Assembly (NCBI RefSeq): GCF_001443605.1
Contig: NZ_CP013118.1
Coordinates: 3,343,501-3,407,500 of the forward strand
Source of the DNA: Salinivirga cyanobacteriivorans
GTDB taxonomy: Bacteria > Bacteroidota > Bacteroidia > Bacteroidales > Salinivirgaceae
Reading direction: 5' to 3'
Length of the DNA: 64,000 nt
In this document: one piece after another, positions 1,542-64,000 of the stretch
Numbering within the stretch: the first letter of the stretch is position 1
How the letters are laid out: the number at the start of each line of letters is the position of its first letter
Program-made: the position numbers and the translations under genes
Notes under the pieces: generated by a model
What the model was told of the DNA's origin: nothing
Seen by the model: the letters and a program-made list of their open reading frames with translations, nothing else
Database searches by the model: none

Positions 1542-1582
1542 AAGATCCCGGTAGCAGGAAGGTTGCTACCGGGATCTTTTTA
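1542..1582. terminator. Bidirectional rho-independent terminator
   Basis: A perfect 15-bp inverted repeat (1542-1556 with 1564-1578, loop 1557-1563) is followed by T's on the plus strand and preceded by A's. It sits between the convergent transporter and TonB-receptor genes and overlaps the stop codon of the latter. Confidence 0.9.
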
Positions 1583-3649: not shown

Positions 3650-3793
3650 GTTTTTAATTTTTAATTCCCGGCAAATGTACAATATTTGAAATGTCTTTTT
3701 TTGCCAGTAAATGTTTTAGGAATTTATTTAATCCAGGTTTTTTAACATATAAAGTTGTTATTGCTTAGTTTTGCACCAGTAAAATATGTAATT

Positions 3794-45282: not shown

Positions 45283-46396
45283 GCTTAACCTGTATTTTGT
45301 CAATAGAGTAAAATTAAGTAATTCCATTGAAATGATTGTAATCAAATATAATCATTTCATGTATCACCTTTATGCCATTCAAAAAGATTATGCTTATGGA
45401 AGAGGAATAAAAAACCACTGGCCACCGAAGACATCGATCAATAACGTAAAACTATATTAGTGGCCAATGGTTCAACAAACACACTTAGAAATTTTGCCTG
45501 ACTTCCTGTTTTGTGCATTGGGACACCCACATTTAATTTCTATAAAAGCTATTTTTCTATTTGGTCATAAACCTACTTTTTTTGCTACAGGTCAAAAAAA
45601 GTAGGCAAAAAAAACCCGCCGCTTACAGAAAAATGCTAAAAACCTGCTCATTATGACTAAAGTTTACGAACTCACACCGATTTTTTCTGAAAAATCGGTG
45701 CTCAAACAGCGCAAACTTTGACGCCATAATGAACAGGTTTTCTTAACGCATTTTTCTTCATGCGGCTATAAAAGCAACTGTTATCCACTTCATCAACGAC
45801 AAGGCCCAAAGCGGGCTGGCCTGATCAAATTATTCGTAAACTTCCCGTTTTTCACGGGACAGGCTGTGAGGGCTAAAGCCGTTGGCGGGCCAGCGCCAGG
45901 GTGAATGTTCTACTCGAATTAATCCAAAAAATGATTGTAATCAAATATAATCATTTCATGTATCACCTTTATGCCATTCAAAAAGATCATGCTGATGGGA
46001 GAGGGTAAAAAAAAACCACTGGCCACCGAAGACATCGATCAATAACGTAAAACTATATTAGTGGCCAATGGTTCAACAAACACACTTAGAAATTTTGCCT
46101 GACTTCCTGTTTTGTGCATTGGGACACCCACATTTAATTTCTATAAAAGCTATTTTTCTATTTGGTCATAAACCTACTTTTTTTGCTACAGGTCAAAAAA
46201 AGTAGGCAAAAAAAACCCGCCGCTTACAGAAAAATGCTAAAAACCTGCTCATTATGACTAAAGTTTACGAACTCACACCGATTTTTTCTGAAAAATCGGT
46301 GCTCAAACAGCGCAAACTTTGACGCCATAATGAACAGGTTTTCTTAACGCATTTTTCTTCATGCGGCTATAAAAGCAACTGTTATCCACTTCATCA

Positions 46397-47894: not shown

Positions 47895-48110
47895 CTTCAT
47901 CAACGACAAGGCCCAAAGTGGGCTGGCCTGATCAAATTATTCGTAAACTTCCCGTTTTTCACGGGACAGGCTGTGAGGGCTAAAGCCGTTGGCGGGCCAG
48001 CGCCAGGGTGAATGTTCTACTCGAATTAATCCAAAAAATGATTGTAATCAAATATAATCATTTCATGTATCACCTTTATGCCATTCAAAAAGATCATGCT
48101 GATGGGAGAG

Positions 48111-48178
48111 GGTAAAAAAAACCACTGGCCACCGAAGACATCGATCAATAACGTAAAACTATATTAGTGGCCAATGGT
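48111..48178 (-). terminator. Terminator of the glucan operon, present three times in the array
   Basis: On the minus strand ACCATTGGCCAC pairs with GTGGCCAGTGGT across a ~34-base loop, followed by eight T's; it begins 14 bases after the phosphorylase stop. The same structure sits in unit 1 (about 45404-45473) and unit 2 (about 46003-46077). Confidence 0.75.
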
Positions 48179-48191
48179 TCAACAAACACAC

Positions 48192-51100
48192 TTAGAAATT
48201 TTGCCTGACTTCTATTTTAGAAATTTGATTTGTTCGTTTAAAGAGTATTTCAGAGATTTTAGCATTTAAGGTCTTCCCTTCAATGGTCTCTTTTTTATTA
48301 TTGCTGTAAAATATCGTAATATTTTCATTCTTTGATTTGCTGTATATTATTGGAACCTGGCAAAAGGTAAAACAGAGTTCATCCCGGTCTACGGATGTTT
48401 TTTGCTGTGCTCCTTCCGCATCGAAATATTCAAAAGTTCCCGGTTCCTGCATAAATTCAGCGGGGTTTAAGAATTCGGGTTCAAACGTCAAAGCAGCATC
48501 TTCCACTTTTATTCCCAGTTCGGACCAGCGATTTAGAATATCTTCTTTTACCTGGCCGGTCATGCCTGGTTGTTGTGCGCCTTTATGGCCCGGGGTATGT
48601 GAATATGGGTCGGTTGGAAATGCTCCATAAAGTTCCGGCGATTTATTAATACCAATACCTGCCCTTATTTCGTAATAATGGTCGATCATTTTACCGACAA
48701 TGGCATGGTCGGTTTGCGTTTCTCTGGCCCAAATAATATTTTCCTGTACTGCAAGCAAGAGTTTAGAGACCATATGCCAGTAGATGCTTCCCAGCCCTTC
48801 GTAACCGAAGAATGTGCCGGAGCGGCCTGTAAAGGCTTTATGATTGAATATTTGTTCGAAAATAGCGAGATAATCTTCGTATTCCTTTTCAACCATCTCT
48901 TTACAAGAGGTTTTACTCAGTTTATGCAGTGCTTCTTTAAGATCTTCGGCATTATGGAAGTTACCGTTAAAATGGAAGTTTCCATTGATGTCTTTTTTTA
49001 TGATAGACTGGTTACCTGCTTTTATCATGGTTTTGGCCAGCTTCGATTTGTCGATAAACTTAGCCGGGATCAGGTTTTTAGATAAGAATCGTGGCAGGTC
49101 TCTGTCCGGATACAGAATATAACTATACTGATCGGGCCGGTACATTTTGCTGTTTTTCAGGGCATCTAAAACAGAGAGGGCTTCTTCTGGCTTGAGCAGC
49201 CCTGATGATAATACAGCAACCTGGCCTTCGAGCATCTCATAAAGGGGCTTAATACTTATTGATTGTGTACCAAACTCTACCAGGTTGTATGCATGGTAAA
49301 GTCCATCTTTTCGCTTGTTGGCATTAATCGAGTGATTGATATATTTTAACGCCAACTCTAAAAATGACTGTATTTGTGAGGCACTTAGTGATTTTGTGCC
49401 AGCATAAAAACCTGCATAGGCTTCCTCGCGGTATTTTTCTCCCAGGTACCCCAATTCATCAGTAATGTTTCGCCGGTTTTTATTGTTGATATTTTTATTG
49501 AGCTTAGGCTCATGTTTTTCAAGCACTGACACGATGCCTTCCATAAAAGCAATAACCGGTTTGTTGATAGCAAAGCTTGTTTTGCCATCATTGCTTAGCA
49601 GATTCAAAAAGAAGGTTGCATAGCGACGCATGTAATAAAGCGTTACCATTGATACGCCATTTCCAACCAGGGCATTGTTGGCATCGTTCCATTCGGGACG
49701 TTGCGTATTGAGCCAAATACCGGCTTCGGGAATGAAGTTCGACATTTTGGTTAGCAATGGTACAAGTATTTTTTCTGTAAGATTGGCTTTAGTTAAATGG
49801 CCATGCTGGTCAAATACCAGTTTCCCATCAGCTCCAATCTGTTTTTCTCTTCTGAGTATTTGATTTTCTTTCTCATTTTCAAACTCAATTGTGCTTTGTG
49901 GGTTTTCTACGATCTGCTCATATTTTTTGATGCGATAAGGTACATTGGCATATACAAAATATGGGGCCGCAAGGAATTTTTTGAATTCCTTTTTTTGAAA
50001 TTTTTGGGCCAGCTCCATTAGTTTCAGAAGGTAAATTATCTGATGGTCGCCCCAGTAACCAATAAATGACCATGGATCTTCAGGGTCGATAACTTCCCAG
50101 TCGATTCCATTGCGTGTAATGTGGTATGGGTTGTAACCATCTATGGTGGAGGCGTTAACGAATTTTGTAATCATTGAGAGTATAAAACCCGGGAAGGAAT
50201 AACCCAGTGCTTCCCAATTTTGAAAAATATCGCGCCAGTTGCCTTCGTAGCTTTTGATGTAAGAGCCGTCCGGGTTTTTACCGGGAATGGAAAATTTGTT
50301 CCACGGCCTGCTCGGATCGCCATGTCGGCGGCTAAACGTTAATGGGAGATATTCGTATGCTATGCGTATAAGATCGCTATTGCCACTTTTTTCTGCTTTT
50401 TCCAGCAGTACAAAGTAATTCAGCGAATCATCGAATTGATTGAAAAAATCCTGGTATTTGTCTGCTATGCTTTGGTTAAAGGTATGAACAAAATCTATAA
50501 GGTCGGCTTTTTCTATTCTGTACTGGTCCTCAAATACTCCTCCACGCATGATATTGAACAATACATTTGAGAAATGGCGGCCAACACTTAGCTCATCGGC
50601 TGTTTTTTGCAAGCCATCGGCTGTAGCCACCAGTTTTTTGAGCATTGTGGTGCCTTTATCAATATCGGCGATCAGCATTGACTCAATCTTTGCGGGGTCA
50701 AGTTTGAGCTGTTCTATTAGTTCATATATTTTGACGTGATCCTGCTCTACATCTGCAACTATATGCCATTGTTTATATTCCTGGCTGTTAAGCGTAATCC
50801 GGCTGTTGATGAAATATGCACCGGGCTCAGCTCTCATATCTGTCTCTTTTTTGAGTTTGTTGTCTTTCCTGAAATCATCAAGTTGCAGCGAAGAGAGTAA
50901 TATGTTATTTGGTTTAAGGCCAGTGCTCCATACTGTTGTGGCTTTTAAGGCTTCACTTGGTTCTGCTTTGTCAATAATCATGGCGCTAAGTGAATATATA
51001 CCAAGCTTAACCATATTAACAAGTTCATTCCTTTTGTAGGCATTGGCCAGGTTGCTTGTGCCGTTCTGTAAGTCAGCACCCACTCCAAAAGGTAAAATGT

Positions 51101-51644
51101 TTTGTATACCGTCAAGTATCTCTACAGTTACTTGTTTGTGATTGAGATTTTGTATTTCAGAGGTTTTAATAAATCCGTATTTATCAGAAACCTGCCAGGT
51201 ATACAGGAATGTAAGAGATAAAGCTTCATTGGTTTCTTCAAATATGATTTTATTACCTGCAAAGTTTTTGTATAGATTTCTGGTAATGGGGTAAATACCT
51301 TCGTACCTGCATGAGAATGGCTCCCAAAGGTGGACCTCATTATCCGTGTGGATTTTTAGAATTGTCTTACTACCAGTGTTTTCCGAATTGTTTGTTATTT
51401 TATCGTCCGTATAATAAGGGAAAAGCGCAAGATCTGCGCTTTTCCTTCCGGCAGATAATCCACCGTTTGATGAAATGAAAAACCAATGATCAGTATGGCT
51501 GACCATACTGATGAAAAATGGTCGGATTTGATCGTAATTACTTATTTTATAAAATTTTTCATTATTCGATTCTATGTATTCTCCTTCTGAACGAGAAACT
51601 CTATTATTTAAGGGCGTATGATTTAAATATGTGTGGTTCTTCAT
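48192..51644 (-). CDS. Beta-1,3-oligoglucan phosphorylase, GH94-clan (GH149-like)
   Basis: 1150 residues without signal peptide, so cytoplasmic. It has the GH94-clan plan: an N-terminal beta-sandwich (about 20-310), a helical linker and an (alpha/alpha)6 barrel (about 350-1000). The catalytic general acid is most likely Asp654 in RPEWNDANNALVG, the equivalent of the WND motif of cellobiose phosphorylases. Other conserved blocks are RRHGDPSRPWNKFSI and PWSFIGYWGDHQIIY. The size exceeds GH94 disaccharide phosphorylases and fits GH149 (or GH161) beta-1,3-oligoglucan phosphorylases, which release glucose-1-phosphate; GH16/GH3 neighbours support this. The last codons (VRQNF) and stop lie in repeat unit 3. 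Starts 156 bases after the GH3 gene, likely same operon. Confidence 0.8.
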   Translation of the reverse strand: MKNHTYLNHTPLNNRVSRSEGEYIESNNEKFYKISNYDQIRPFFISMVSHTDHWFFISSNGGLSAGRKSADLALFPYYTDDKITNNSENTGSKTILKIHTDNEVHLWEPFSCRYEGIYPITRNLYKNFAGNKIIFEETNEALSLTFLYTWQVSDKYGFIKTSEIQNLNHKQVTVEILDGIQNILPFGVGADLQNGTSNLANAYKRNELVNMVKLGIYSLSAMIIDKAEPSEALKATTVWSTGLKPNNILLSSLQLDDFRKDNKLKKETDMRAEPGAYFINSRITLNSQEYKQWHIVADVEQDHVKIYELIEQLKLDPAKIESMLIADIDKGTTMLKKLVATADGLQKTADELSVGRHFSNVLFNIMRGGVFEDQYRIEKADLIDFVHTFNQSIADKYQDFFNQFDDSLNYFVLLEKAEKSGNSDLIRIAYEYLPLTFSRRHGDPSRPWNKFSIPGKNPDGSYIKSYEGNWRDIFQNWEALGYSFPGFILSMITKFVNASTIDGYNPYHITRNGIDWEVIDPEDPWSFIGYWGDHQIIYLLKLMELAQKFQKKEFKKFLAAPYFVYANVPYRIKKYEQIVENPQSTIEFENEKENQILRREKQIGADGKLVFDQHGHLTKANLTEKILVPLLTKMSNFIPEAGIWLNTQRPEWNDANNALVGNGVSMVTLYYMRRYATFFLNLLSNDGKTSFAINKPVIAFMEGIVSVLEKHEPKLNKNINNKNRRNITDELGYLGEKYREEAYAGFYAGTKSLSASQIQSFLELALKYINHSINANKRKDGLYHAYNLVEFGTQSISIKPLYEMLEGQVAVLSSGLLKPEEALSVLDALKNSKMYRPDQYSYILYPDRDLPRFLSKNLIPAKFIDKSKLAKTMIKAGNQSIIKKDINGNFHFNGNFHNAEDLKEALHKLSKTSCKEMVEKEYEDYLAIFEQIFNHKAFTGRSGTFFGYEGLGSIYWHMVSKLLLAVQENIIWARETQTDHAIVGKMIDHYYEIRAGIGINKSPELYGAFPTDPYSHTPGHKGAQQPGMTGQVKEDILNRWSELGIKVEDAALTFEPEFLNPAEFMQEPGTFEYFDAEGAQQKTSVDRDELCFTFCQVPIIYSKSKNENITIFYSNNKKETIEGKTLNAKISEILFKRTNQISKIEVRQNF

Positions 51645-51800
51645 CTGGTTATAGTTTTGATATTTTTGATCAGATGCAATTCATAATGAATTTTAATCAT
51701 TTCGTGTACCATGATATTCTGGTAATGGTTACACGTGTTTGCGATTCTAACTTAACAGTTTCTGACTTTTAAGTCTATTTTACTTTATTCCTCAGAATTA

Positions 51801-53645
51801 TTAATTATCGTTTTTTTTAAAATCCTGGTATGATAATCCATAACCTATTTCATATAATGGGTTTACTTCCTCATTCCAGAAATTTGGTCCGTATTTACCA
51901 TTGAAATCTTCCACAGATACAGGCCAGGAGTGGGGCAGTTTGCCCGTAAAGTTATATGCTCCAAAAAGTACCTGAGCTACACCATCTCCTTCGGATCCGG
52001 GTAACCATGCTGCAACAAAGGCATCAGATTCGGCAATTTCTTCGGTTACAACCAACGGTCGTCCTGAAATTAAGACGATGACTGTTTTTATATCTTTTTT
52101 ATTGTATGCTTCAATGTATGCTTTATGTTTTTCTGTTAGCGTAAATGAACAAGTTCCACGTTCGTCGCCAATATCTCCAAAAAACTCGGCATAAGGTTTT
52201 TCTCCAACTACAATTATTGCCCAATCGGCATCTGCATGCACACCTGTTCCTGTGGTGTCGTAAGCAACTTTACCTTCGGCCATTTCTTTTATTCCTGTAA
52301 GTATGGAGGTTGCACCCTCGTAGTTTCTGCTTACACCCTGCCAGCGAATGGTCCAGCCGCCAGATTGTAATCCTGTATTATCGGCATGTTCTCCCACAAC
52401 TACAATTTTTTCGGCATCCGTGGGTATTGGTAGTGTTTTGTCGTTATTTTTTAACAATACCATTGATTCACGTACAGCCTGACGGGCTTTAGCTCTATGT
52501 TTTTCAGTGCCAATTTTTTTAGTGAGGGTGGTGTCCGGAAACGGGTGGTCGAAAAGGCCAAGGCGAAATTTCTGTCTCAATATTCTTCTCACAGCGTCGT
52601 CAATACGGGTCATTGGTACGGATCCGTTTTCAACACCTGCTTTTAAACCTTTTTGAAATCCGTCCATATCCCCATCTACAGCCATAACCATATCTACACC
52701 GGCATTAATTACATCATTTTTGCCAAAGCGTGAATATCCTTTCCAATCAGTTACCACTATACCATCGAAATTCATCCCTTTTTTCAGGGTGTCGGTAATT
52801 AGTGGTTTATGTGCATGCATCGAGATTCCTGACAGATAGTTAAAGCCCACCATTATTGCTCCAATACCTGCATTTACAGCATCGCGGTATGGAGGTAAAA
52901 GACGTTTACTTACTTCCTGTATGCTTAAGGTAGTGTTTCCGCCCTCTTTACCATATTCGGTGGATCCGTCTCCAACATAATGTTTGGCTGTAGCCATTAC
53001 CGTTGTTTTGTCTGACAGGTTACCCTGATGTCCTTTTACTGAGGCTTTTGTAAATTCGCGAGTAAGTTCAGTACTTTCGGCAAATGCTTCGTACACACGT
53101 CCCCATTTTTCATTATAGGGAATCGATATGCATGGTGAGAAGGTCCAGTTAAAACCCGTACCCTGCATTTCGAGTGCTGTAATTCCAGCGGCTTCTTCTA
53201 CCAGCTCTGCATTTTGTGTGGCTCCCAATCCTATGTTGTGCGGAAAAATGGTGGCGCCTTCAAAGGTGTTTTGTCCATGTATTGCATCTACCCCAAAAAG
53301 CAATGGTATACCTAATCTGGAATCCAGTGCTTGTTTTTGCAATTCAATGAAGCGCGCCTGCCATTCTTCTGCAGTATTCCCCGGTGTGGGGCCATCAGTA
53401 TGTATTATGGATCCTACAGATCCTGATTTAATATCCTCTGGTGAAAATTCGTCAAAATGCCTGATCTGGGTCATTTGCCCTATTTTTTCATCAAGGGTCA
53501 TTTTAGCCAGTAATGTTGCTACTTTTTGTTCTATAATGGCTTCTTCTGACTCTTTGGTACATGAAATTGATATACCAAGGCTCAGTATCACGAGTAAAAG
53601 CAGCCCAGTGCTGAGCTTATTAACTATTTGTTTATTTTCTTTCAT
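51801..53645 (-). CDS. GH3 beta-glucosidase lipoprotein
   Basis: About 614 residues from the ATG at 53645 (MKENKQIVNKLSTGLLLL; an in-frame ATG at 53657 adds four). Lipoprotein signal ends in LGISISC. The two-domain GH3 core is present: KHYVGDGSTEYGKEGGNT, the nucleophile Asp in DGIVVTDWKGYSRF, and the second domain with VVVGEHADNTGLQSGGWTIRW and LPGSEGDGVAQVLFG. No fibronectin domain. It removes glucose from the non-reducing end of beta-glucan oligosaccharides; laminari-oligosaccharides are likely in this locus. The reading frame overlaps the upstream GH16 by 14 bases, implying translational coupling. Confidence 0.93.
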   Translation of the reverse strand: MKENKQIVNKLSTGLLLLVILSLGISISCTKESEEAIIEQKVATLLAKMTLDEKIGQMTQIRHFDEFSPEDIKSGSVGSIIHTDGPTPGNTAEEWQARFIELQKQALDSRLGIPLLFGVDAIHGQNTFEGATIFPHNIGLGATQNAELVEEAAGITALEMQGTGFNWTFSPCISIPYNEKWGRVYEAFAESTELTREFTKASVKGHQGNLSDKTTVMATAKHYVGDGSTEYGKEGGNTTLSIQEVSKRLLPPYRDAVNAGIGAIMVGFNYLSGISMHAHKPLITDTLKKGMNFDGIVVTDWKGYSRFGKNDVINAGVDMVMAVDGDMDGFQKGLKAGVENGSVPMTRIDDAVRRILRQKFRLGLFDHPFPDTTLTKKIGTEKHRAKARQAVRESMVLLKNNDKTLPIPTDAEKIVVVGEHADNTGLQSGGWTIRWQGVSRNYEGATSILTGIKEMAEGKVAYDTTGTGVHADADWAIIVVGEKPYAEFFGDIGDERGTCSFTLTEKHKAYIEAYNKKDIKTVIVLISGRPLVVTEEIAESDAFVAAWLPGSEGDGVAQVLFGAYNFTGKLPHSWPVSVEDFNGKYGPNFWNEEVNPLYEIGYGLSYQDFKKNDN

Positions 53646-54918
53646 AAACCCTGACATAATCGATGATCATTTTTTGTGAAGTAACGGTTTCGTCTATACC
53701 CTGGGCGCCTCCCCAGCCTCCGCCCATGGCCAGGTTGAGTATGATGTTGTGTGGCTTGTCAAATGGCCATGAAAGTTCTGTACTGTTGTCATCATAAGTA
53801 AAGTAATGATTACCATCTACAAAAGCCTTAATGTACTCAGGGGTCCATTCAACCGCGTAGGTATGGTACTTATTGTTCATGTTTTCTACTGGTGTAGTTG
53901 CTGTAGGCTGGTTACCAAGCTTAAAGTAATAAGCTCCGCTGTGAGCCGATGCATGGGCTATACCATCACCTGTTTCGTTATCCATTTCGTAACCAACACT
54001 TTCTAAAATGTCTATTTCACCGCAGTAGGGCCATGAAAGTTCATCTATATAATCATCGCCAAGTGTCCAACCTGCTGCCCAATTTCCTCTGTGGGCCGGT
54101 ACCTTGGCGCGAAATTCAATTTTTCCATATTGAAAGCTCACTTTTTCCCGGGTTGTGAGCCGTGCTGAAGTCCATTCTTGCCCCATGTCGTTTTTATGGG
54201 CTTCAATAATGAGGTTCCCGTCTTCAATGCGTGCATTTTTTTCCCGGTGGTTGGTATAATATTGGGGTTCATAGTTACCCCAACCCCAATTGCCTTCGTC
54301 AAAAGTCCATTTTGTAGTATCAATTTTGCTTCCTTCAAACTCATCGGCCCATACCACGCTCCACTCATCGCCATTGGTGTTTTGAACCATTTTGCGTGGT
54401 GTCTCGCGATATTTTTTCACCATGGTAAACTTTACCCAATCAACTTTTAGTGCGTTGTTTGTATGGAGCTTAATTTTATGCAGCCCTTTGTTCATGGGAG
54501 CACCAACTCTATTTACCGTTACCAGTGAATCTTGTTTTGCAGCAATTTTAATGTTTCCGGAGATATTGTATGTCCGGTCATCTTTGTTGTCGTAATAGTC
54601 TTCTATCCAAATAATGGGCTCTTCGTCTGATGCTTTGGCGGTTCTGATCTCTATTTTGTATCGACCGGCCTGCGCTATATTCGCATCCAAAGCTATCCAT
54701 CCTTCTTCTTTAATGTGGATAATTTTACTGTTATCTTGACGTGTCGCTTCAATTGCTCCTTGTGCATCGTGGTTGCTTTCAGCTTCAATAAAAACCGTTG
54801 TTTTATTGGCTTCATTTTTTTCTTGTCGGGGTTCCTCTTTGGAGGATTTTCCATTACAAGCGTTAAGGCTTATTAATGCAGCAAGGAGTGCTAGAGTAAA
54901 TAGATTGGTACGTGCCAT
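53632..54918 (-). CDS. GH16 beta-glucanase lipoprotein with N-terminal CBM6-like domain
   Basis: 428 residues with lipobox LISLNAC (Cys21). Residues ~42-165 form a beta-sandwich resembling CBM6 (FIEAESNHDAQGAIEAT start). The GH16 domain begins at DEWSVVWADEFEG; the catalytic EIDxxE is Glu301-Asp303-Glu306 in WPYCGEIDILESVGYE. The WPxCGEIDI-ExxG form is typical of laminarinases. Anchored in the outer membrane facing periplasm or surface. Ends inside the GH3 start; upstream is the MFS gene (28 bases). Confidence 0.93.
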   Translation of the reverse strand: MARTNLFTLALLAALISLNACNGKSSKEEPRQEKNEANKTTVFIEAESNHDAQGAIEATRQDNSKIIHIKEEGWIALDANIAQAGRYKIEIRTAKASDEEPIIWIEDYYDNKDDRTYNISGNIKIAAKQDSLVTVNRVGAPMNKGLHKIKLHTNNALKVDWVKFTMVKKYRETPRKMVQNTNGDEWSVVWADEFEGSKIDTTKWTFDEGNWGWGNYEPQYYTNHREKNARIEDGNLIIEAHKNDMGQEWTSARLTTREKVSFQYGKIEFRAKVPAHRGNWAAGWTLGDDYIDELSWPYCGEIDILESVGYEMDNETGDGIAHASAHSGAYYFKLGNQPTATTPVENMNNKYHTYAVEWTPEYIKAFVDGNHYFTYDDNSTELSWPFDKPHNIILNLAMGGGWGGAQGIDETVTSQKMIIDYVRVYERK

Positions 54919-54946
54919 TGCTATTATATTTTTATGTTTTACTTTT

Positions 54947-56527
54947 TTAGTTTAATTTTTGCTTGTCTGTAGGTACAAGTATGGCTTCGAGTTCTTCCAG
55001 TGATTTATTTTTTGTTTCGGGCAACACTATGAGCACGAAAATTAATCCCAGGGCTGCAAAAAGGCCATAAATGAAGAATGTCCATGCATTGCCAATTGTA
55101 GCAAGCTCCCATGGAAATACCAGTTGCACCAGGAAACTTACCGATGAGTTAATAAAGCCTGTAAACGATACTGCAATTCCCCTGATGGTATTGGGGAACA
55201 ACTCTGAGAAAAGCACCCACATAACAGGTCCAATCGAAATGGCAAATGAAGCGACAAACCCAATTATGCTGAGTAAAATGAGCCAGGCATTCATATTAAT
55301 ACTTGCCGTAATCAGATCGGCTTCTACCTTTTTTGATATAATGTTGCCAAAGTTTTCTTCCACTGCATCTTTAAATTCTATATCGCTGTGATAGGTGACA
55401 TTTAGCATTCCGGCTGTTTTGGCTTTGTCGACGTGCCCCGGGAGCGTTTCTACTGCTTGCGGGGTAAGTTTATAGGTGGCGCTGCTAAAACCATAAGAAA
55501 GCAGGAACATGCTAATGGCAATGCCTGAAAAACCAAATATTAATAGTGCTTTTCGCCCAAAACGGTCAATAAACATAATGGCCAGAATTGTGAATACCAG
55601 GTTGGTTAACCCTACCAAAATGGCTTGAGAGAAGGCAGCATCAGTACCTATACCGGTTTGTTCAAATATCATTGGGGCATAAAAGAACACTGAATTGATT
55701 CCCGTAATTTGTTGTAAGATGGCGACTACAATACCAATGAGGAGTACCAGGCGTAAAGCTGGCTTGAAAAGCTCTGATAGTTTGGCCCGTTTTTTTACCG
55801 TTCTGGTTTTTATTGATTCTTTTACTGCAGCCAGGTCTTTAAGCGCTTGTGCTTCGCTTGATACTTTTTTAAGTATTTGAAGTGCCAGAGTGGACCGTGA
55901 TTTCATTATGAGCCAACGGGGGCTTTCGGGTACGCCAAACAAGAGGCCGAAATATATAACGGCTGGAATACCTTCCAATCCTAGCATCCATCTCCATTGG
56001 TGTACGTCGATACCCAGCGTTTGTATCCATGCGCTGTCTGATTGACTCAACTGTAGAATTAAGTAATTTGTGAAAAAAGCAACTGAAATACCGGTTACGA
56101 TATTTAGCTGGTTAAATGACACCATGCGGCCTCTCATTCCCGGAGGGCATATTTCGGCAATGTACATGGGGGCAATAATGAGTGATGCTCCAACACCAAA
56201 TCCACCTATCATACGTGCTATTACGAGTGTAATGAAATCGGGGGCAAGTGCAGAACCCAGTGCTGATACGGCATAGAGGCTGGCTGCAATTTTTAGTACC
56301 GGTTTGCGGCCAAATTTTGTACTAAGCGGACCAGCCACCATCATAGCGAGCGTGGAAGTCAGTGTGAGAGAACTTACAGCCCAGCCCAGTTCAAGTTTTG
56401 AAAGTGCAAATTCCGGTTCAATAAATTTTATAACTCCTGAAATTACAGATGCATCAAATCCCATTAGAAAACCGCCGAGGGCTACAATGAGGGATATTTT
56501 TATGGTGTATTTTTGTTCTTGTGTCAT
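54947..56527 (-). CDS. MFS sugar porter (XylE/GLUT-like) transporter
   Basis: 526 residues with 12 helices. Sugar-porter signatures: GGFLMGFDASVISGV in TM1, STKFGRKPVLK between TM2 and TM3, PESPRWL at 200-206 after TM6, QQITGINSVFFYAP in TM7 and PETKNKSLEELE at the end. A ~65-residue insert between TM9 and TM10 (about residues 360-430) is larger than usual. It probably brings glucose or short beta-glucan oligosaccharides into the cytoplasm by H+ symport. Sits between two GH16 genes in the same direction, so is part of the glucan operon. Confidence 0.92.
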   Translation of the reverse strand: MTQEQKYTIKISLIVALGGFLMGFDASVISGVIKFIEPEFALSKLELGWAVSSLTLTSTLAMMVAGPLSTKFGRKPVLKIAASLYAVSALGSALAPDFITLVIARMIGGFGVGASLIIAPMYIAEICPPGMRGRMVSFNQLNIVTGISVAFFTNYLILQLSQSDSAWIQTLGIDVHQWRWMLGLEGIPAVIYFGLLFGVPESPRWLIMKSRSTLALQILKKVSSEAQALKDLAAVKESIKTRTVKKRAKLSELFKPALRLVLLIGIVVAILQQITGINSVFFYAPMIFEQTGIGTDAAFSQAILVGLTNLVFTILAIMFIDRFGRKALLIFGFSGIAISMFLLSYGFSSATYKLTPQAVETLPGHVDKAKTAGMLNVTYHSDIEFKDAVEENFGNIISKKVEADLITASINMNAWLILLSIIGFVASFAISIGPVMWVLFSELFPNTIRGIAVSFTGFINSSVSFLVQLVFPWELATIGNAWTFFIYGLFAALGLIFVLIVLPETKNKSLEELEAILVPTDKQKLN

Positions 56528-56542
56528 ATTTTCTGTGATTCT

Positions 56543-57643
56543 TTAAAATATTGCTGCCTGAAATACTTTTACATGATCGATTTCCATGGTTTGTGGAAAT
56601 ATGGAATTGTCAACCCCCTGTAATCCGCCCCAGGTGCCTCCCGCAGCTACATTGAGTATAAGGAACGCCGGTTGATTCAGCGGCCAGTTTTCAATGTTTT
56701 TGGGACTGGGAGCATAGGTGTGCACAACATTTTCCAGGGAGTCCACATAGAATATGAGCTTCGAGGGAGTCCATAGCATTCCGTAGGTGTGAAAATCTTC
56801 TTCGCAACTTTCCAGTTCAATTTTGCTTCCATCGCCGTTTCCTGCATATCCGGCAGGTACATGCACTGTGGAATGAACTGTATTGGGCTCAAATCCTACG
56901 TATTCCATAATGTCCATTTCTCCACAGGCGGGCCATCCAACCGAATCAATGTTGCTACCCAACATCCAGATTGCTGCCCATATGCCTTTGCCGGCAGGCA
57001 ATTTGGCATTTATCTCGTAGCGGCCATATTGAAATTCTTTTTTGTCTTTGGTATGAATGCGCGATGAGGTGTAAGATCCGGGCTCTTTTTTATTGTCGAT
57101 TTTTCGTATATGGATGTTTAGTTTTCCATCTTTAATAGTGGTGTTTTCGCCATTTGTATAATTCTGTAACTCCTGGTTTCCCCAACCATGATCTCCTGTG
57201 GCATAGGTATAGGAATGCTTGTCTAAATGCTCACCGTTAAAATCATCTTGCCAAACAAGTTCAAGGCGGTCAATGTAGTTGGGGTCATTTTTTGTTATTT
57301 CTATTTGTTTGAAGATTGTATCCTGGTTTGTTTTGCCATATACAATGAGCCCTATCTCTTGTTGACCCTTAAAAGGAAAATAGGCTTCAAGTTTTTCTGG
57401 TTTGTTTATGGTTTGGTTTCTTATTAACCAATTGGCACTGTCATATGCTCCTGATGACTTATTTGTGAGTTCTACAAAATTAGGCTTTTGGGGGTCTGTT
57501 TTGGCTTCAAAATCTACTATTAGAGAATTGTCACAGCTATGGATTATCAATGTGAGTATAAATACAATAAATACCGATTTAAAACCTGATTTTAAGGCAT
57601 TATGCCCCCGGGAAATCCTGTTTGTTTTCGAATTTTGAGTCAT
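56543..57643 (-). CDS. GH16 beta-glucanase lipoprotein with N-terminal Ig/PKD-like region
   Basis: 366 residues with a long positively charged start and lipobox LTLIIHSC (Cys37). Residues 43-115 look like a PKD/Ig-type module (VDFEAKTDPQKPNFVELTNKSSG). The GH16 domain starts at LELVWQDDFNGEHLD; catalytic residues Glu242-Asp244-Glu247 lie in WPACGEMDIMEYVG. Likely a second, cell-bound laminarinase-type enzyme. It ends 15 bases before the MFS gene; its own start is 59 bases from the T9SS GH16. Confidence 0.93.
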   Translation of the reverse strand: MTQNSKTNRISRGHNALKSGFKSVFIVFILTLIIHSCDNSLIVDFEAKTDPQKPNFVELTNKSSGAYDSANWLIRNQTINKPEKLEAYFPFKGQQEIGLIVYGKTNQDTIFKQIEITKNDPNYIDRLELVWQDDFNGEHLDKHSYTYATGDHGWGNQELQNYTNGENTTIKDGKLNIHIRKIDNKKEPGSYTSSRIHTKDKKEFQYGRYEINAKLPAGKGIWAAIWMLGSNIDSVGWPACGEMDIMEYVGFEPNTVHSTVHVPAGYAGNGDGSKIELESCEEDFHTYGMLWTPSKLIFYVDSLENVVHTYAPSPKNIENWPLNQPAFLILNVAAGGTWGGLQGVDNSIFPQTMEIDHVKVFQAAIF

Positions 57644-57702
57644 GATGTCTGGTTATAGCGCTTTGCAGGCTGATTTATATTAGATTTTACGTGAATTCTG
57701 TT

Positions 57703-59709
57703 TTAATGCTTAATAAACCTCAGCGTCTTATTTTTTTCTCCTGTTAAGAGTCTGATGAAATATGTACCCTTATTCAGCGTATTTATATTGATTGCATTTC
57801 CGGGTAAAATTTTGCCTTCCTGCACCAGTTTACCAAGCGTGTTGTATATGTTATAGTTCATTACTTCGTTCAGGTTATGAAAGTAAATGGCATTTCCGGC
57901 GGGATTTGGATACAGTGTTACCTGTGTGATATTCTCCTGTGGCTGATTGATTCCATTAGTTGCCACTCCATAAATGAGACGGCTTATGTTAAAATCACCA
58001 ACATTGAATTGTAGTTTCATGATAGAATCTGTTTCGTAAAGCTGCACATCATTTAAATAGATTGATGTGAAGAATGTCCATCCACCGGTTGCCGGTATAT
58101 CGATTGGGCCGGTTCTGTCTTCTCCGTTAAAATGTATTTCCATTTGTCCGCCACCGGGTTGCGATGAAACTCTTAGCTCCACATCATATAATCCGCTGCT
58201 GTCAACATTTACAGAATATTCTACCCATTCGTCGGGATGTATCCATCCAATATTTGCTCCGCCATCGTTAAATTCTGTATCTACAGCTTCGTCTTGTCTG
58301 GGACCCGGTCCTTCGTTTACGCCATCTGTATCGTGGTAAGCGACACCTTCACCGCCAAAGTCATAATCTGTGGCCTCTATTGTTCCGGGGATTGTATGTT
58401 TTGTAATGGAGTCGGGGTAGGGTAGTTGGTTAACTATATCGACCAAAATGGAATCTTGTTCTGTACCGCATGTGTTTTGCGCAGTTACTTTTACAAAACC
58501 TCCCAGGTCGGTCCAGTTAAGACTGACCGCATTGGTGTCGGCAACTCCTGTAAAGGTAACTCCTTCAGGCACTTCCCATGTGTAGGTAGTCGATTTCAAT
58601 GGGTTTATTGCGTAAGTGGTATTTGTAGCAAAAGCCTCTAGTGTAGCAGGGCCGTTTAGCTCAATATCTTTTGTTTCTACACCCAACTTGAGTGTATAGC
58701 TGTCGCAGTAACCAGTAACTTCGCAGGTTACTGTATCGGCACTGCAGCCCCAATCTACTGAAATCTGATGTGTTCCCTGTCCATCTGTAATTGTTGCATC
58801 ATCGGGAACGATCCAGTTGTAAGTGAAATCTTCTGATTCAGCAGTCTGAAATTTGATGTTTTTTTGTGATTTATTTACTAAAGTGTCACCAGAGATTTCT
58901 GGTTCAGTTGCCATTTTGTAAACGCGTACATAATCTACTTGCATTTGCTGCGGGAAAACGGTTGATGAATTTGGACTGCCAGGCCAATCTCCACCCACAG
59001 CAATATTAAGCAACAAGAAAAAGTCATCATGTAATTCGGTTAAGTAGCTGGGTGTTATACTTGCTTCATGATATTGAATACCGTCGACAAACCATTTTAT
59101 GTACGTATCTGTCCATTCAATAGCGAAGGTGTGAAATGAATCGGCAAAAATACCTTCGCTTAATTGATAATCTCCGCCATAATAGGCATGGCCATTATCG
59201 TCGTAATGCATTGTGCCGTGTACCACATCATCTTTTCCTTCTCCGCCGCCAACCATTTCCATGATATCAATTTCACCACATCCGGGCCATGGTGTACCCT
59301 CGAAAATGTCATCTCCAAGCATCCAGAAAGCAGGCCATATACCCTGGCCATAAGGTAGTTTTATTCTTGCTTCAATTTTACCATATTGCCATGAGTGATT
59401 AGACGGGTAAGTAATTAATCTGGCTGATGTGTAGTTGCGTCCGCCATAATTTTCTTCTCTTGCTTCAATGGTAAGATAGCCATTTTCTACACGTGCGTTT
59501 TCAAGCCGATTTGAGGTATAATATTGTAATTCGTTGTTTCCCCATCCGGTACCGCCTTCTTCAAATGTCCAAATAGAAGAGTCTGGTAGCCCGTTGTAAT
59601 TAAACTCATCGTTCCATACTAATTCGTAACAGCTTTGTGCTTTTACCTGGAAAAATGCTGCAAGGCTGAATAACGCTATAAAAAGCAATATGATTTTATT
59701 GTTGTGCAT
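57703..59709 (-). CDS. Secreted GH16 beta-glucanase with CBM6 and T9SS sorting domain
   Basis: 668 residues. Signal peptide to about residue 24 (cleaved before QSCYELVW), GH16 at ~27-268 with Glu146-Asp148-Glu151 in WPGCGEIDIMEMVGG, two Ig/PKD-like modules at ~275-430, a CBM6 at ~440-580 (GTIEATDYDFGGEGVAYHDTD; PGGGQMEIHFNG), and a type A T9SS C-terminal domain at ~595-668 (VTLYPNPAGNAIYFHNL...KGTYFIRL...RFIKH). It is therefore exported by type IX secretion and attached to the surface or released: the first depolymerase to meet laminarin-type glucan. A hairpin separates it from the CBM9 gene upstream. Confidence 0.94.
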   Translation of the reverse strand: MHNNKIILLFIALFSLAAFFQVKAQSCYELVWNDEFNYNGLPDSSIWTFEEGGTGWGNNELQYYTSNRLENARVENGYLTIEAREENYGGRNYTSARLITYPSNHSWQYGKIEARIKLPYGQGIWPAFWMLGDDIFEGTPWPGCGEIDIMEMVGGGEGKDDVVHGTMHYDDNGHAYYGGDYQLSEGIFADSFHTFAIEWTDTYIKWFVDGIQYHEASITPSYLTELHDDFFLLLNIAVGGDWPGSPNSSTVFPQQMQVDYVRVYKMATEPEISGDTLVNKSQKNIKFQTAESEDFTYNWIVPDDATITDGQGTHQISVDWGCSADTVTCEVTGYCDSYTLKLGVETKDIELNGPATLEAFATNTTYAINPLKSTTYTWEVPEGVTFTGVADTNAVSLNWTDLGGFVKVTAQNTCGTEQDSILVDIVNQLPYPDSITKHTIPGTIEATDYDFGGEGVAYHDTDGVNEGPGPRQDEAVDTEFNDGGANIGWIHPDEWVEYSVNVDSSGLYDVELRVSSQPGGGQMEIHFNGEDRTGPIDIPATGGWTFFTSIYLNDVQLYETDSIMKLQFNVGDFNISRLIYGVATNGINQPQENITQVTLYPNPAGNAIYFHNLNEVMNYNIYNTLGKLVQEGKILPGNAININTLNKGTYFIRLLTGEKNKTLRFIKH

Positions 59710-59744
59710 TGTCTTGAATTTATGCTTGAAATCAATGAAAGAAA

Positions 59745-59773
59745 TTAAGAGGCTGCCGGTAGCAGCCTCTTAA
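59745..59773 (-). terminator. Intra-operon hairpin / partial terminator
   Basis: A perfect 12-bp stem TTAAGAGGCTGC/GCAGCCTCTTAA (59745-59756 with 59762-59773, loop 59757-59761) lies between the CBM9 stop and the next gene. The minus-strand T-run is weak (AATTTCTTTC), so it may attenuate or protect mRNA rather than stop transcription fully. Confidence 0.6.
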
Positions 59774-59783
59774 AAAGAGTGAA

Positions 59784-61505
59784 TTACTTAACTGTGATTT
59801 TTTTGGAACTTACGTTTCCTTGGTTATCCACAATTTTCACTATGTAAATAGCATTGTTGCCCAGGTTTCCAACGTTAAGTGTAACTGAATTGCTGTTCAG
59901 GTTTTTAATGTTATTTGTCTGACGACCAACAACATCATAAACAACAACTTCTTTTATTGGGTTACCGGCCTGAATGTAAAGTTGATCAGCAACCGGGTTT
60001 GGATACAGTGACAAACCAGGAACAGGTGCTACATCAGAAATGGCTGTTTCATCAGTCATGTCTGAAAGCGTTATTGTTCCATAATAAGCTGTGTTGAAGT
60101 AGTTTTCATCTACTGTAGTATTCCATGAAACCATGTAGTCGCGACCACCAACACCGTCTTTATCATCAGCAGCAATAACATCGAAATTAAATTCTGAGCT
60201 TGCTAAAGGTACAAAACCGCCTCCAAGTGAAGTCCAGGGAATTGCCCATTCGATGATATAGCCTTCGTTATTGGCCATCTCTACTTGCGCTCTTTCAACG
60301 TCTTGTGCCCATGTGTCATCTACATTTGCAGAACCGGTCCATGTATCTAATCCACGTACACAGCGAATTTGCCAGTCGTTACCGTCAAAAGGATCTGATG
60401 CTGACTGGTCCATGTCAAAGAATAGCTCAACATTGTCGTTATCCCATGGGTTAGCACCTTCATTTTGTGGGGTAGCATCTTCTACGTAGTTCAGGATGTA
60501 TACATTCGAGATGTCCCACATAACCTTGTAGTAAGAATAAAGTGGTGTAGGAGATCCCCACCAGCTGCGCTGCTGCAGTGCATGCATTTTGGCATTGTCC
60601 CAAACATCATCAATAACACCGTCAATAACAGGAGCTGTACCGTCTACGTCAATTGCAAAGGCAGTTCCGTCTTCCTCTTCTTCAACGATAATGATTTTAT
60701 TTATTTCCTGAGTACCTGTTGAGTTACCAACAATCAATTGAGTTGTATCTCTAACAGTTTCTCCAAAAGCATCATGTGAATATACGACTTCATACATACC
60801 CTGGTCCTGACCAACTGTTATGTTGTATGAGGCAAGACTTTCAGTAGCACTGTATACATTGTCAGTTTGTGTAAGTGTAGTTTCTGTGCCATCAATAAAC
60901 AGCTGCACGTTACCGGCATTATTGAATTTATCGGTAATATTAAATGTAACATCTGTGTCTCCATAAGGATTATAACCAGGAGCTACAATGTTGTCATAAT
61001 AATACACATCGCCGTCTGAAGAGTATTCCCAACCAAAGAAAATTACCATTTGGTTGTATGATCCTGAGATAGAATCAGGAATTGGGAACTCAAGGGTTTT
61101 CCATGAACCAACAGTTGGATCGTTTGCATCGCTGTAATATGCATCTACTTCAACAGTTTCATAACCACCATTGCGGTTAAATAATTGAAACTTAAACAAA
61201 ATAGAGTCATTTACACCCGGATCTTCTGTGTAAAAGTCAATTGTGAAAACATCACCATCGGCAGAAAGATCAATATCTCCACCAAAATAGATGTTTATAC
61301 CGCCCCAAAAGGCATCGCCACTTTTAACAGCTTCGCCTACAAACCCGTCTCCATTTGGGTTTTCTACACCATTGGTATAGGCAGTAAGGTTGAATGGCTC
61401 AACGAATGGGTCACTTACTGTCTCAAAATCAACTAATGTTGTTTGTCCTATGGCACCTGAAACAAGTGCAAAAATGAATAAAAAGGAAAGAATAAAGTTC
61501 TTCAT
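59784..61505 (-). CDS. CBM9/DOMON-like T9SS-exported glycan-binding protein
   Basis: 573 residues with signal peptide MKNFILSFLFIFALVSGAIG. Residues ~22-175 form a beta-sandwich reminiscent of carbohydrate-binding modules (TLVDFETVSDPF; YYYDNIVAPGYNPYG). Residues ~280-480 match the CBM9_1-like fold (APVIDGVIDDVWDNA; NPWDNDNVELFFDMD; YIIEWAIPWTSLG). A type A T9SS domain ends the protein (LSLYPNPVADQLYIQAG). No catalytic motif was seen. Located directly after susD, where SusE/F-type surface binding proteins normally sit, so it likely holds glucan at the cell surface or in the medium. Confidence 0.8.
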   Translation of the reverse strand: MKNFILSFLFIFALVSGAIGQTTLVDFETVSDPFVEPFNLTAYTNGVENPNGDGFVGEAVKSGDAFWGGINIYFGGDIDLSADGDVFTIDFYTEDPGVNDSILFKFQLFNRNGGYETVEVDAYYSDANDPTVGSWKTLEFPIPDSISGSYNQMVIFFGWEYSSDGDVYYYDNIVAPGYNPYGDTDVTFNITDKFNNAGNVQLFIDGTETTLTQTDNVYSATESLASYNITVGQDQGMYEVVYSHDAFGETVRDTTQLIVGNSTGTQEINKIIIVEEEEDGTAFAIDVDGTAPVIDGVIDDVWDNAKMHALQQRSWWGSPTPLYSYYKVMWDISNVYILNYVEDATPQNEGANPWDNDNVELFFDMDQSASDPFDGNDWQIRCVRGLDTWTGSANVDDTWAQDVERAQVEMANNEGYIIEWAIPWTSLGGGFVPLASSEFNFDVIAADDKDGVGGRDYMVSWNTTVDENYFNTAYYGTITLSDMTDETAISDVAPVPGLSLYPNPVADQLYIQAGNPIKEVVVYDVVGRQTNNIKNLNSNSVTLNVGNLGNNAIYIVKIVDNQGNVSSKKITVK

Positions 61506-61553
61506 AATAAAATAGTTTTGGTTAATACTTAAGTGAACTTTTTAATTTTTATT

Positions 61554-63071
61554 TTAATAATTTGGATTTTGTGTCAATGCATAGTTAGAGTTGACTATTT
61601 CTTCCTGAGGTATTGGGAACACTTCGTGTTTGCCCTGAACAAATCCTCTATCGCCTAATACAGTTGCTGCGTCGCCCCATCGTACTAGGTCAAAGAAACG
61701 GTGTCCTTCCATGGCCAATTCAAGGCGGCGCTCTTTTTTAATATCGTCCATTGTCACTCCACTTATTGGATCAAGTTCTACACGGTCTCTTACAAGGTTC
61801 AAGTAATAGTCCGCACTTTGTGGTGCAGTTGCTCCTCCAACGATGGCCTCAGCCATCATGAGTAATACATCGGCATATCGTATGATGCGTTCGTTGGTTT
61901 CGTAGTTCCATTGTGCATCAACATCTCCGACAATATGAGCCCATGGGGCGCGTTTTTTACTAAACCATCCGGTATATCCTTCGTTTTCATCCCAATCTTC
62001 TGCGCCAATTAAAGTAAGAAATGCTTCACCATAGGCTGTGCCTTCTTTTCTTATGTTGTCACCTTCTGCGTTATATTCTCCAATGAGATCCTGGGTTACC
62101 ATGTCGAAACCCCAGCCTGCATTAAGTGTATCTGTTGCTATACCTCTTGGTCCACACAGTTGCACATCAATATTACCTCCATTTACACGTCCATTGCCCC
62201 AATCACCACCACGATTGATGTCGCTATATTCAATCTCAAAGATGGATTCAATTCCATGCTCATGACTTAGCTTCCAAATGTTATCGTAGTTAGGTTCCAG
62301 GTCGTATTGTGCAGAAATAATTACCTCGTTAAACTGATCTGCAGCCAGCTGGTAGTATTCTGCTTGCGAAAGCTCAAAGTTGTAATTATTGTAATAGTAA
62401 GGAGAAGCCATATACAGGTATGTTTTTCCTAATAATGCCTGAGCAGCCCCTTTAGTAACTCGATAATCTTCAACCGGGTTTTCAGCTAAATTAGGAATGG
62501 CATCCTGAAGGTCTTTAACTATTTGTGCGTAAACTTGTGCCGGACTTTTTCTTTCCTGGTTATATTCGTCAGGAGTTAAGGTGCTTGTAATAAGCGGTAC
62601 GGCGCCAAAAAATTTCACGAGCTCAGAATAATAATAGGCTCTTAGAAATTTTGCCTCAGCAATGTATTCTCTTGAGGCCTGGGACGCATTTGGATTAGCA
62701 TTGGCAATAACTACATTAGTTCTGTATACACCATAGTAATCTCTGCGCCACATTTCTAAAATGGCTGAATTTGTCGGCAGCATTGTGAATTCTGCAACTG
62801 CATGGTATTCTGGTCTGTCACCAGGGCCACCGCCAACAACCTCGGAATCGTCAGATGGGAAATTGGCAAGAAAATAATATGATCCATAATTTTCCCAATA
62901 TTTTGGTTGCAGCATTGAATATGCAGCGATTAATCCCTTATAGATATCTTCTTCGGTTTGATAAAAATTTGATTCGAGTTTTTGTCCAACCGGTTCCAGT
63001 TCGAGCCAATCATCGGCACAGCCAGATGAGAGCAATACCAGTGTGATGAAAATATATTTTATTGATTTCAT
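61554..63071 (-). CDS. susD: SusD/RagB-family glycan-binding lipoprotein
   Basis: 505 residues with lipobox LVLLSSGC (Cys18) and the SusD opening DDWLELEPVGQKLESNFYQTEEDI. TPR-like helices follow (AEAKFLRAYYYSELVKFFG is the family hallmark) and the C-terminus has KKERRLELAMEGHRFFDLVRWG. It caps the SusC barrel at the cell surface and binds the incoming polysaccharide. Lies 19 bases after susC; the CBM9 gene follows after 48. Confidence 0.96.
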   Translation of the reverse strand: MKSIKYIFITLVLLSSGCADDWLELEPVGQKLESNFYQTEEDIYKGLIAAYSMLQPKYWENYGSYYFLANFPSDDSEVVGGGPGDRPEYHAVAEFTMLPTNSAILEMWRRDYYGVYRTNVVIANANPNASQASREYIAEAKFLRAYYYSELVKFFGAVPLITSTLTPDEYNQERKSPAQVYAQIVKDLQDAIPNLAENPVEDYRVTKGAAQALLGKTYLYMASPYYYNNYNFELSQAEYYQLAADQFNEVIISAQYDLEPNYDNIWKLSHEHGIESIFEIEYSDINRGGDWGNGRVNGGNIDVQLCGPRGIATDTLNAGWGFDMVTQDLIGEYNAEGDNIRKEGTAYGEAFLTLIGAEDWDENEGYTGWFSKKRAPWAHIVGDVDAQWNYETNERIIRYADVLLMMAEAIVGGATAPQSADYYLNLVRDRVELDPISGVTMDDIKKERRLELAMEGHRFFDLVRWGDAATVLGDRGFVQGKHEVFPIPQEEIVNSNYALTQNPNY

Positions 63072-63090
63072 AATTATAGGTTTTTGAGGT

Positions 63091-64000
63091 TTAAATTGAG
63101 AGATTTATACCAAACGAGATAACTCTTGGTCTGGGATATAGACCACGATCTACCCCAATACTTAGTTTATTGCTGCCACTACCTGAGTTTCCAACTTCCG
63201 GATCAGATCCGGGATATTTTGTGAGTACAAAAAGGTTTTGACCAGAAACATATAACCTAAGTTTACTAATATGTATTTTTTCGAGTATGGTTGGCTGAAA
63301 TGAGTAGCCCAGTTCCAGATTTTGTAACCGTACGAAACTTCCATCAAAAACAAATAAGCTATTGTGCGAAAAGTTATTATTGTTGTCGTTGACTGTATAT
63401 CTGGGGAAATCATCGGTATGGTTTTCCGGTGTCCATGCATTATCGTATAAGAATTTTGGCTTATTATTATCTGTTAAGTCTGTCCTGTATGCACCATAAT
63501 ATATGTCATGACCAATGGAACTCTGTAAAAATATTTTTAAATCAAATCCACGATATTCCAGGTTTGCATTGAATCCCAGTGTCCAGTCTGGGTGAGGATT
63601 CCCAATCATTGTTTTATCATCATCGGTGATTTCTCCATCTCCATTTATATCCTTAAATATCACATCCCCAGGTATTGCCTTGGGTTGAATAAGTTCACCT
63701 TCGTTGTTTACATAGGCATTAATTTCATCAAATGAGTCGAAAATACCATCTGCCTCATAGCCATAGAAATACCAGACCGGATAACCTTCTGTAGAATATG
63801 TAATGGCACCTGTGGTTCCCAGGTTAGCTCCGGGGACATCACCTTCAAGTGAAGTAACCTCATTATGATTATAGGCTGCCATGGCTGTGATGTCGTAGTT
63901 TATTCCCCACAGATTGCCTTTATAGCTTAATTCTAATTCTATACCTTTATTAAGGATATCTCCTTCATTTGCATTTGGTTTATTATTTCCAATATAATAT
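63091..64000 (-). CDS. susC: SusC/RagA-family TonB-linked outer-membrane protein, C-terminal part
   Basis: The reading frame is open to the window's end; the ATG at 63882 is internal (upstream codons read ...GDILNKGIELELSYKGN). About 302 C-terminal residues are present: barrel strands such as WTLGFNANLEYRGFDLKIFLQ, the conserved EFxxD-like LYDNAWTPENHTDDFPRY, FVRLQNLELGYSF and the final PRVISFGINLSI. Full SusC proteins are ~1000 residues, so about 700 lie outside. It is the TonB-driven import channel paired with SusD, upstream gene of the glucan operon. Confidence 0.95.
   Translation of the reverse strand, partial: YYIGNNKPNANEGDILNKGIELELSYKGNLWGINYDITAMAAYNHNEVTSLEGDVPGANLGTTGAITYSTEGYPVWYFYGYEADGIFDSFDEINAYVNNEGELIQPKAIPGDVIFKDINGDGEITDDDKTMIGNPHPDWTLGFNANLEYRGFDLKIFLQSSIGHDIYYGAYRTDLTDNNKPKFLYDNAWTPENHTDDFPRYTVNDNNNNFSHNSLFVFDGSFVRLQNLELGYSFQPTILEKIHISKLRLYVSGQNLFVLTKYPGSDPEVGNSGSGSNKLSIGVDRGLYPRPRVISFGINLSI

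Follow-up and report, generated by a model that had tools for sequence, protein, structure and literature searches.

Laminarin ranks among the largest marine sugar stores. For the polysaccharide utilization loci (PULs) that act on it, the events outside the cell have been well studied. A locus in Salinivirga cyanobacteriivorans, whose genome is a single contig of 4.81 Mb, raises the question of the next step: by which route would the products of surface hydrolysis pass the inner membrane to reach a phosphorylase predicted to be cytoplasmic? An earlier note on the window, i.e., the whole stretch of 64,000 nucleotides analyzed here (bases 3343501 to 3407500 of the genome), had proposed that an MFS protein takes up oligosaccharides from a laminarin-type glucan, which are then cleaved with phosphate. 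Our analysis makes it fairly probable that this is a laminarin-type beta-1,3-glucan utilization locus, combining surface cutting, oligosaccharide import by an MFS protein of the sugar porter (SP) family and cytoplasmic phosphorolysis by a GH149 enzyme.

Open reading frames and searches against Pfam and NCBIfam placed nine genes, all on the minus strand and spaced by -26 to 156 bp, between positions 48192 and 64000 of the window (Table 1). Read along that strand, they encode SusC, SusD, a CBM9-like T9SS protein, a GH16-PKD-CBM6-T9SS protein, a second GH16, the SP-type MFS protein, a third GH16, GH3, and the phosphorylase; the susC/susD pair with co-directional CAZymes is that of a Bacteroidetes PUL. 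The scores lie far beyond chance, and all nine components listed in the earlier note, co-directional as it had described them, were confirmed. The different anchoring that it had ascribed to the three GH16 enzymes also holds: one carries a T9SS tail recognized by Pfam (Por_Secre_tail, 39.6 bits, alongside PKD_6 at 77.8 bits and CBM_6 at 48.5 bits), and the other two, like GH3, have lipobox-like N termini as judged by eye. The part of SusC that lies within the window has no Pfam match by itself; with the adjoining genome DNA, the full frame comprises 1056 aa when counted from its first Met, and a search with the N-terminal 920 aa gave Plug at 62.3 bits and CarbopepD_reg_2 at 62.5 bits. A propeller protein with a LuxR-type domain, found 2.8 kb from the GH149 gene with IS256 in between, is a possible regulator of the glucan locus. 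An Rfam scan of the window returned one tRNA and nothing for the glucan locus, and a promoter scan of positions 45300 to 64000 was left unused because it found 52 promoters against 54.2 expected.

Table 1. Features of the glucan locus and its neighborhood, in window coordinates
Feature	Position	Strand	Evidence
Propeller + Y_Y_Y + LuxR-type HTH protein	42391..45345	-	PF07495 39.8, PF00196 31.6, PF07494 22.7 bits
GH149 beta-1,3-glucan phosphorylase, 1150 aa	48192..51644	-	NCBIfam NF058639 1698.1 bits
GH3 beta-glucan exohydrolase/beta-glucosidase, lipoprotein-like N terminus	51801..53657	-	PF00933 225 bits, PF01915 147 bits
GH16 laminarinase-type, lipoprotein-like N terminus	53632..54918	-	PF00722 73.5 bits
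MFS sugar porter (SP family), 526 aa, putative importer	54947..56527	-	TIGR00879 345.9, PF00083 348.5 bits
GH16 laminarinase-type, lipoprotein-like N terminus	56543..57643	-	PF00722 91.7 bits
GH16 laminarinase + PKD + CBM6 + T9SS C-terminal tail	57703..59709	-	PF00722 82 bits
CBM9-like T9SS protein, possible surface glycan-binding protein	59784..61505	-	PF06452 98.8, Por_Secre_tail 39.4 bits
SusD-like lipoprotein	61554..63071	-	PF07980 120.8 bits, PF14322 80 bits
SusC-like TonB-dependent transporter, 3' part	63091..64000	-	ORF, frame reaching ~66261 outside the window

By its sequence, the large enzyme belongs to GH149 and not to GH161, the two families between which the earlier note had left the choice. 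Its score against the GH149 equivalog model NF058639 (1698.1 bits) exceeds the cutoff of 1150, and it aligns with the GH149 enzyme Pro_7066 (6hq6) over residues 22 to 1146 at 1264.7 bits, compared with 55.9 bits, in three pieces, for GH161A, so that GH161 was ruled out. The expression "GH94-clan phosphorylase" was right in spirit, but GH94 as the family was likewise ruled out: the enzyme matches no Pfam family, Pfam GH94 has no match in the whole genome, and an entry named cellobiose phosphorylase reaches about 56 bits, in pieces. The active-site residues given for Pro_7066 in the accessible text of its description (R470-D471, W651-N652-D653, E951, and H959; PMC6771811) correspond to R471-D472, W652-N653-D654, E949, and H957 in our hand-read 6hq6 alignment, the positions of which were rechecked and in which the chain numbering runs 19 ahead of that in the paper. 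With Pro_7066 (6HQ6/6HQ8), the enzyme thus has in common its family, length, and active-site residues as well as the absence of a signal peptide, going by the accessible text of two reports (PMC6771811, PMC5827456). That absence, which the earlier note had claimed and which our reading of the N terminus by eye bore out, supports a predicted cytoplasmic location. At an E value of 0.001, the genome holds no second GH149.

Phosphorolysis in such a PUL is an already known design. The accessible part of a 2018 report assigned most Bacteroidetes GH149 genes to a PUL or CAZyme cluster in which their partners are GH3 and/or GH30_1 together with GH17 and/or GH16. It also described type II clusters, which come mainly from Gammaproteobacteria and combine a TonB receptor with GH16, GH17, and an MFS protein of pfam13347 (PMC5827456). 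Likewise, the available passages on the laminarin PULs of Formosa and Muricauda list GH149, GH17, GH30, and an MFS protein or MFS-GH17 fusion; they suggest the MFS protein for product uptake and include no transport assay (PMC6246565, PMC13188888). GH149 laminarin PULs were also, in the portion of the study available, expressed by North Sea MAGs (PMC10108472). Because such PULs were reported in 2018 and GH149 occurs in 70 of the 395 phylum genomes that we sampled, counting this one, phosphorolysis here is not new, and the earlier view of "a less common PUL design" had to be given up. In its own family, two of six genomes hold GH149, again counting this one, and in a second genome of the genus (G398) the gene lies at positions 941 to 4378 of contig C298. 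The operon has SusC/D, GH16, and GH3 in common with Bacteroidetes GH149 PULs, and SusC/D, GH16, GH149, and an inner-membrane MFS protein in common with the Formosa and Muricauda loci as far as the accessible text describes them, but GH17 and GH30 are absent from it in the Pfam scan and its carrier is of the SP type. GH158 is absent as well in the Pfam and NCBIfam scans. In the accessible passages of the open GH149, laminarin, and laminaribiose literature, an SP-family carrier is not named, which is weak evidence that none has been described.

To class the carriers beside GH149, we fetched 70 neighborhoods, 69 around matches in the phylum sample and one on the same-genus contig, and compared 70 sampled loci, i.e., the window's own and 69 others, with flanks of about 8 kb, shorter where a contig ended, and with crude ORF calling on GC-rich DNA. 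A GPH carrier alone was present in 47 loci, SP alone in 17 (own locus included), both in 3, and neither in 3, where one locus counted as GPH only (L053) also contains an SP piece and one of the three with both (L049) has merely an SP piece at its edge. Among the 52 loci whose flanks each measured at least 7 kb, the corresponding numbers were 37, 11, 3, and 1. The two types are distinct in Pfam, with one representative of each giving MFS_2 at 219 bits (GPH) and Sugar_tr at 357 bits (SP). In one locus (L027), SP lies on the opposite strand. GH17 was found in none of the 17 SP-only loci compared with 38 of the 50 GPH-bearing ones, GH30 was present in 27 of these 50, and the MFS protein beside GH17 or GH30 is mostly of the GPH type (MFS_2) or a GPH-GH17 fusion; the window locus differs from these in having SP instead of the GPH-type protein, together with three GH16s and GH3. 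The genome itself has one further SP besides that of the locus and no strong GPH carrier, the four PF13347 matches being weak (one at 29.6 bits against a cutoff of 27). The less common feature is SP with no GPH carrier nearby, as seen at 17 of the 70 loci. SP and GPH are not mere substitutes for each other, since all five Marinifilum loci hold both.

The SP protein exceeds the TIGR00879 cutoff of 237.8 bits and remains below the NCBIfam equivalogs for XylE (344.1 versus 608 bits) and GlcP (269.9 versus 750 bits). Its nearest solved relatives, XylE (272.9 bits) and GlcP (224.8 bits), carry monosaccharides. With these and the GLUTs it has in common the SP family and, if the sugar contacts of XylE other than Q175 and L297 are as we assume them to be, most of the contact positions; in place of what would be Q415 and W416, the window protein has N460 and S461. 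It also differs from XylE in a loop of ~65 extra residues, presumably periplasmic, between the helices that we take to be TM9 and TM10. This loop measures 63 to 74 residues in all 24 SP rows beside GH149, compared with 3 to 8 at the same position in the ten SP paralogs that we fetched from the same genomes, in which more SP paralogs are known; a further row labeled as a paralog (L104) is in fact an SP located 7.7 kb from GH149 in G112, with a loop of 66 residues. The signature I147, F281, N460, and S461 is kept in 23 of the 24 rows, the exception (L028) having F in place of I147 and Y in place of F281. Nineteen more SP relatives, from places other than the sampled GH149 loci, have loops of 63 to 69 residues and a variable signature, although for two of them (G278 and G258) short or broken contigs limit what can be said of GH149 linkage. 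Together with the SPs beside GH149, they form one clade without paralogs (support of 99 in a quick tree, for which 20 outside places were fetched, G107:C47, G312, and G088:C11 were left out, and L080 and L141 were omitted for their over-long frames), and the idea that the long-loop clade is confined to GH149 loci was rejected. An AlphaFold model of SP built from six sequences (mean pLDDT of 53.1, pTM of 0.41, with blocks of 66 to 81 only around the extra loop) was too weak for use.

Close relatives of the window SP, taken as those above 600 bits, a line set after the score list had been seen, occur in 31 of the 395 genomes, and 27 of these 31 hold GH149 compared with 70 of 395 overall (hypergeometric, 7e-19, ignoring shared descent); at a wider cutoff of E 1e-110, the proportion is 31 of 42. 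SP and GH149 lie within about 10 kb of each other in 18 of the 27; in the other 9, they are widely separated or lie on different contigs. Between them, in 18 of 25 loci compared, the window's own not among them, is a match to GH158, a family of endo-beta-1,3-glucanases (320.6 bits to the GH158 structure 9oro for a representative).

Four close-SP genomes are without GH149 (G183, G135, G107, and G088). In G183, SP is directly preceded by a GH94 enzyme whose match to the laminaribiose phosphorylase 6ggy scores 841.7 bits, compared with less than 77 bits for other entries of the GH94 type. Such an enzyme occurs in 2 of the 395 phylum genomes, G183 and G135, and in 3 of 244 genomes of that class, i.e., these two and G490. 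In all three, two of which belong to one family, SP follows directly on the same strand, with the matched stretches 45 to 50 bp apart, GH158 comes next, and the SP is 63 to 65% identical to that of the window. The clusters of GH94 laminaribiose phosphorylase (PsLBP, 6GGY) have phosphorolysis of beta-1,3-glucosides in common with the window locus, whereas the enzyme family is different; in the accessible text, the Paenibacillus locus adjoins ABC transporter genes (PMC5827456), and the enzyme is described as disaccharide specific (PMC6771811). In the three genomes of this class, it is the same SP type that stands alongside. The remaining two genomes, G107 and G088, have neither GH149 nor GH94 laminaribiose phosphorylase. 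The SP of G107 is surrounded by GH2, a GH42-like enzyme, a sulfatase, MR_MLE, and alcohol and aldehyde dehydrogenases, and perhaps serves another substrate, such as a sulfated galactan; the order of gene sizes near the SP of G088 resembles this, and in both proteins L replaces F281 and S461.

As the carrier is kept while the phosphorylase is swapped between GH149 and GH94, the simplest reading is that its cargo is laminaribiose or short laminari-oligosaccharides. From this gene association we consider such a cargo rather likely, and the uptake of oligosaccharides by the MFS protein that the earlier note had proposed gains from the association of the clade with both enzymes, despite the monosaccharide cargo of the nearest solved relatives. 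The main rival is glucose import. In this scenario, glucose would be released by the lipoprotein GH3, either in the periplasm or on the cell surface. SP would act solely as a glucose:proton symporter, a ROK-type kinase would phosphorylate the sugar, and GH149 would be fed with oligosaccharides through an unlinked carrier. Besides the relationship to XylE, GlcP, and the GLUTs, this scenario draws on the pair I147/F281, which is equivalent to the XylE change Q175I/L297F, the two substitutions that together permit glucose transport according to the accessible part of the study (PMC13095657). A ROK kinase scoring 222.5 bits, plausible for this role although the family is not specific, is encoded in the genome. 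Glucose import also fits the four genomes in which GH3 comes after SP and GH149 is on another contig (G104, G305, G223, and G123), of which G104, G305, and G123 have short or broken contigs that limit statements on GH149 linkage. The close SPs of G107 and G088, which have no phosphorylase of either kind, also count against the favored reading. However, SP is the sole one of the two carrier types in 17 of the 70 sampled loci, all three SPs next to GH94 laminaribiose phosphorylase adjoin an enzyme whose disaccharide substrate must first enter the cell, and the long loop and N460/S461 set the clade apart from the ten other SPs. We regard a carrier for glucose only as rather unlikely.

Of slightly lower standing is the idea that the substrate is not algal laminarin but another beta-glucan, be it mixed linkage, callose-like, or fungal beta-1,3/1,6-glucan. 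The operon does lack the GH30 and GH17 seen in many GPH-bearing loci, and from what is known of their families, GH16 and ExoI-like GH3 enzymes can act on mixed linkages; GH3 here is nearest to the beta-glucosidase 5m6g (474.5 bits) among solved structures, with barley ExoI at 437 bits. However, the best solved matches of all three GH16s are laminarinases or beta-1,3-glucanases, namely, LamCAT (6jh5, 230.7 bits) for the enzyme with the T9SS tail, ULam111 (5wut, 221.7 bits) for the one upstream of SP, and laminarinase 3iln (206 bits) for the one next to GH3. These matches speak against a different glucan. The earlier proposals that a laminarin-type glucan is the likely substrate and that extracellular hydrolysis precedes phosphorolysis are supported. 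One further GH16 match in the genome, at 4.07 Mb, scores 28.6 bits. That GH149 runs in the direction of synthesis, building beta-1,3-oligosaccharides from glucose-1-phosphate, is highly improbable for an enzyme that shares its operon with SusC/D and extracellular laminarinases.

Considering these data, we return to oligosaccharide import and propose a model that builds on the family assignments and gene order shown here, with the families also suggesting the substrate, the locations, and which way the flow runs. First, the T9SS-dependent and lipoprotein GH16s would cleave the glucan on the cell surface, and the pieces may be bound by SusC/D and the CBM9-like protein and passed on to the periplasm. 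Part of them would be trimmed to glucose by GH3. Laminaribiose would then cross the inner membrane by way of the SP-type MFS protein, perhaps along with longer beta-1,3-oligosaccharides and possibly with glucose. Cytoplasmic GH149 would use phosphate to cleave the oligosaccharides, releasing glucose-1-phosphate, shortening the chain, and sparing one ATP for each bond.

On balance, the evidence leans toward a more general role for the long-loop SP clade, as a dedicated inner-membrane importer of laminaribiose and laminari-oligosaccharides that partners cytoplasmic beta-1,3-glucan phosphorylases. In such a role, the phosphorylase would be swappable while SP and GH158 stay, and at many GH149 loci SP would take the place usually filled by a GPH carrier. 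The swap of GH149 and laminaribiose phosphorylase beside one carrier would provide a natural control for its cargo. This little-noticed group of carriers, recurring beside phosphate-using enzymes, offers a small, testable set of candidate inner-membrane importers.

In the window, the region 45330-48212, which contains a tandem array, lies between the gene for the GH149 phosphorylase and that of the possible regulator, a propeller, Y_Y_Y and LuxR-type HTH protein. Its repeat is represented by 102-nt stretches at 45404, 46005 and 48111 (98-100%), the first two spaced 601 bp apart, and every copy contains the final 21 bases of the GH149 gene. An IS256-family element has inserted within one array copy, with an 8-bp target duplication; it, too, separates the beta-1,3-glucan locus from its possible regulator.

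In three genomes, all of one class, an SP sugar porter stands between a GH94 laminaribiose phosphorylase and a GH158 enzyme. In the window, a frame at the start matches MFS_2 weakly, and a TonB-dependent receptor is distant from the beta-1,3-glucan locus (48192-64000).

Coordinates of the features
Feature	Position	Match
IS256-family element	window 46397-47894	
Transposase of the element	window 46633-47799	298.5 bits
GH94 laminaribiose phosphorylase - SP - GH158	L162:10239-15982	
GH94 laminaribiose phosphorylase - SP - GH158	L161:2620-8342	
GH94 laminaribiose phosphorylase - SP - GH158	L163:6420-12135	
Frame at window start	window 2-1501	MFS_2, weak, 29.6 bits together with neighbouring frames
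TonB-dependent receptor	window 1580-3682	PF00593, 101.4 bits

Near the intact SP gene of another genome (G313), a second SP gene start represents a truncated copy (L063:17287-17751). In the SP relatives of loci L149 and L150, the signature residues are altered, with L at both 281 and 461. Since the scanned genes adjoining SP in L149 suggest sulfated galactan, a shift of cargo is possible in these relatives.
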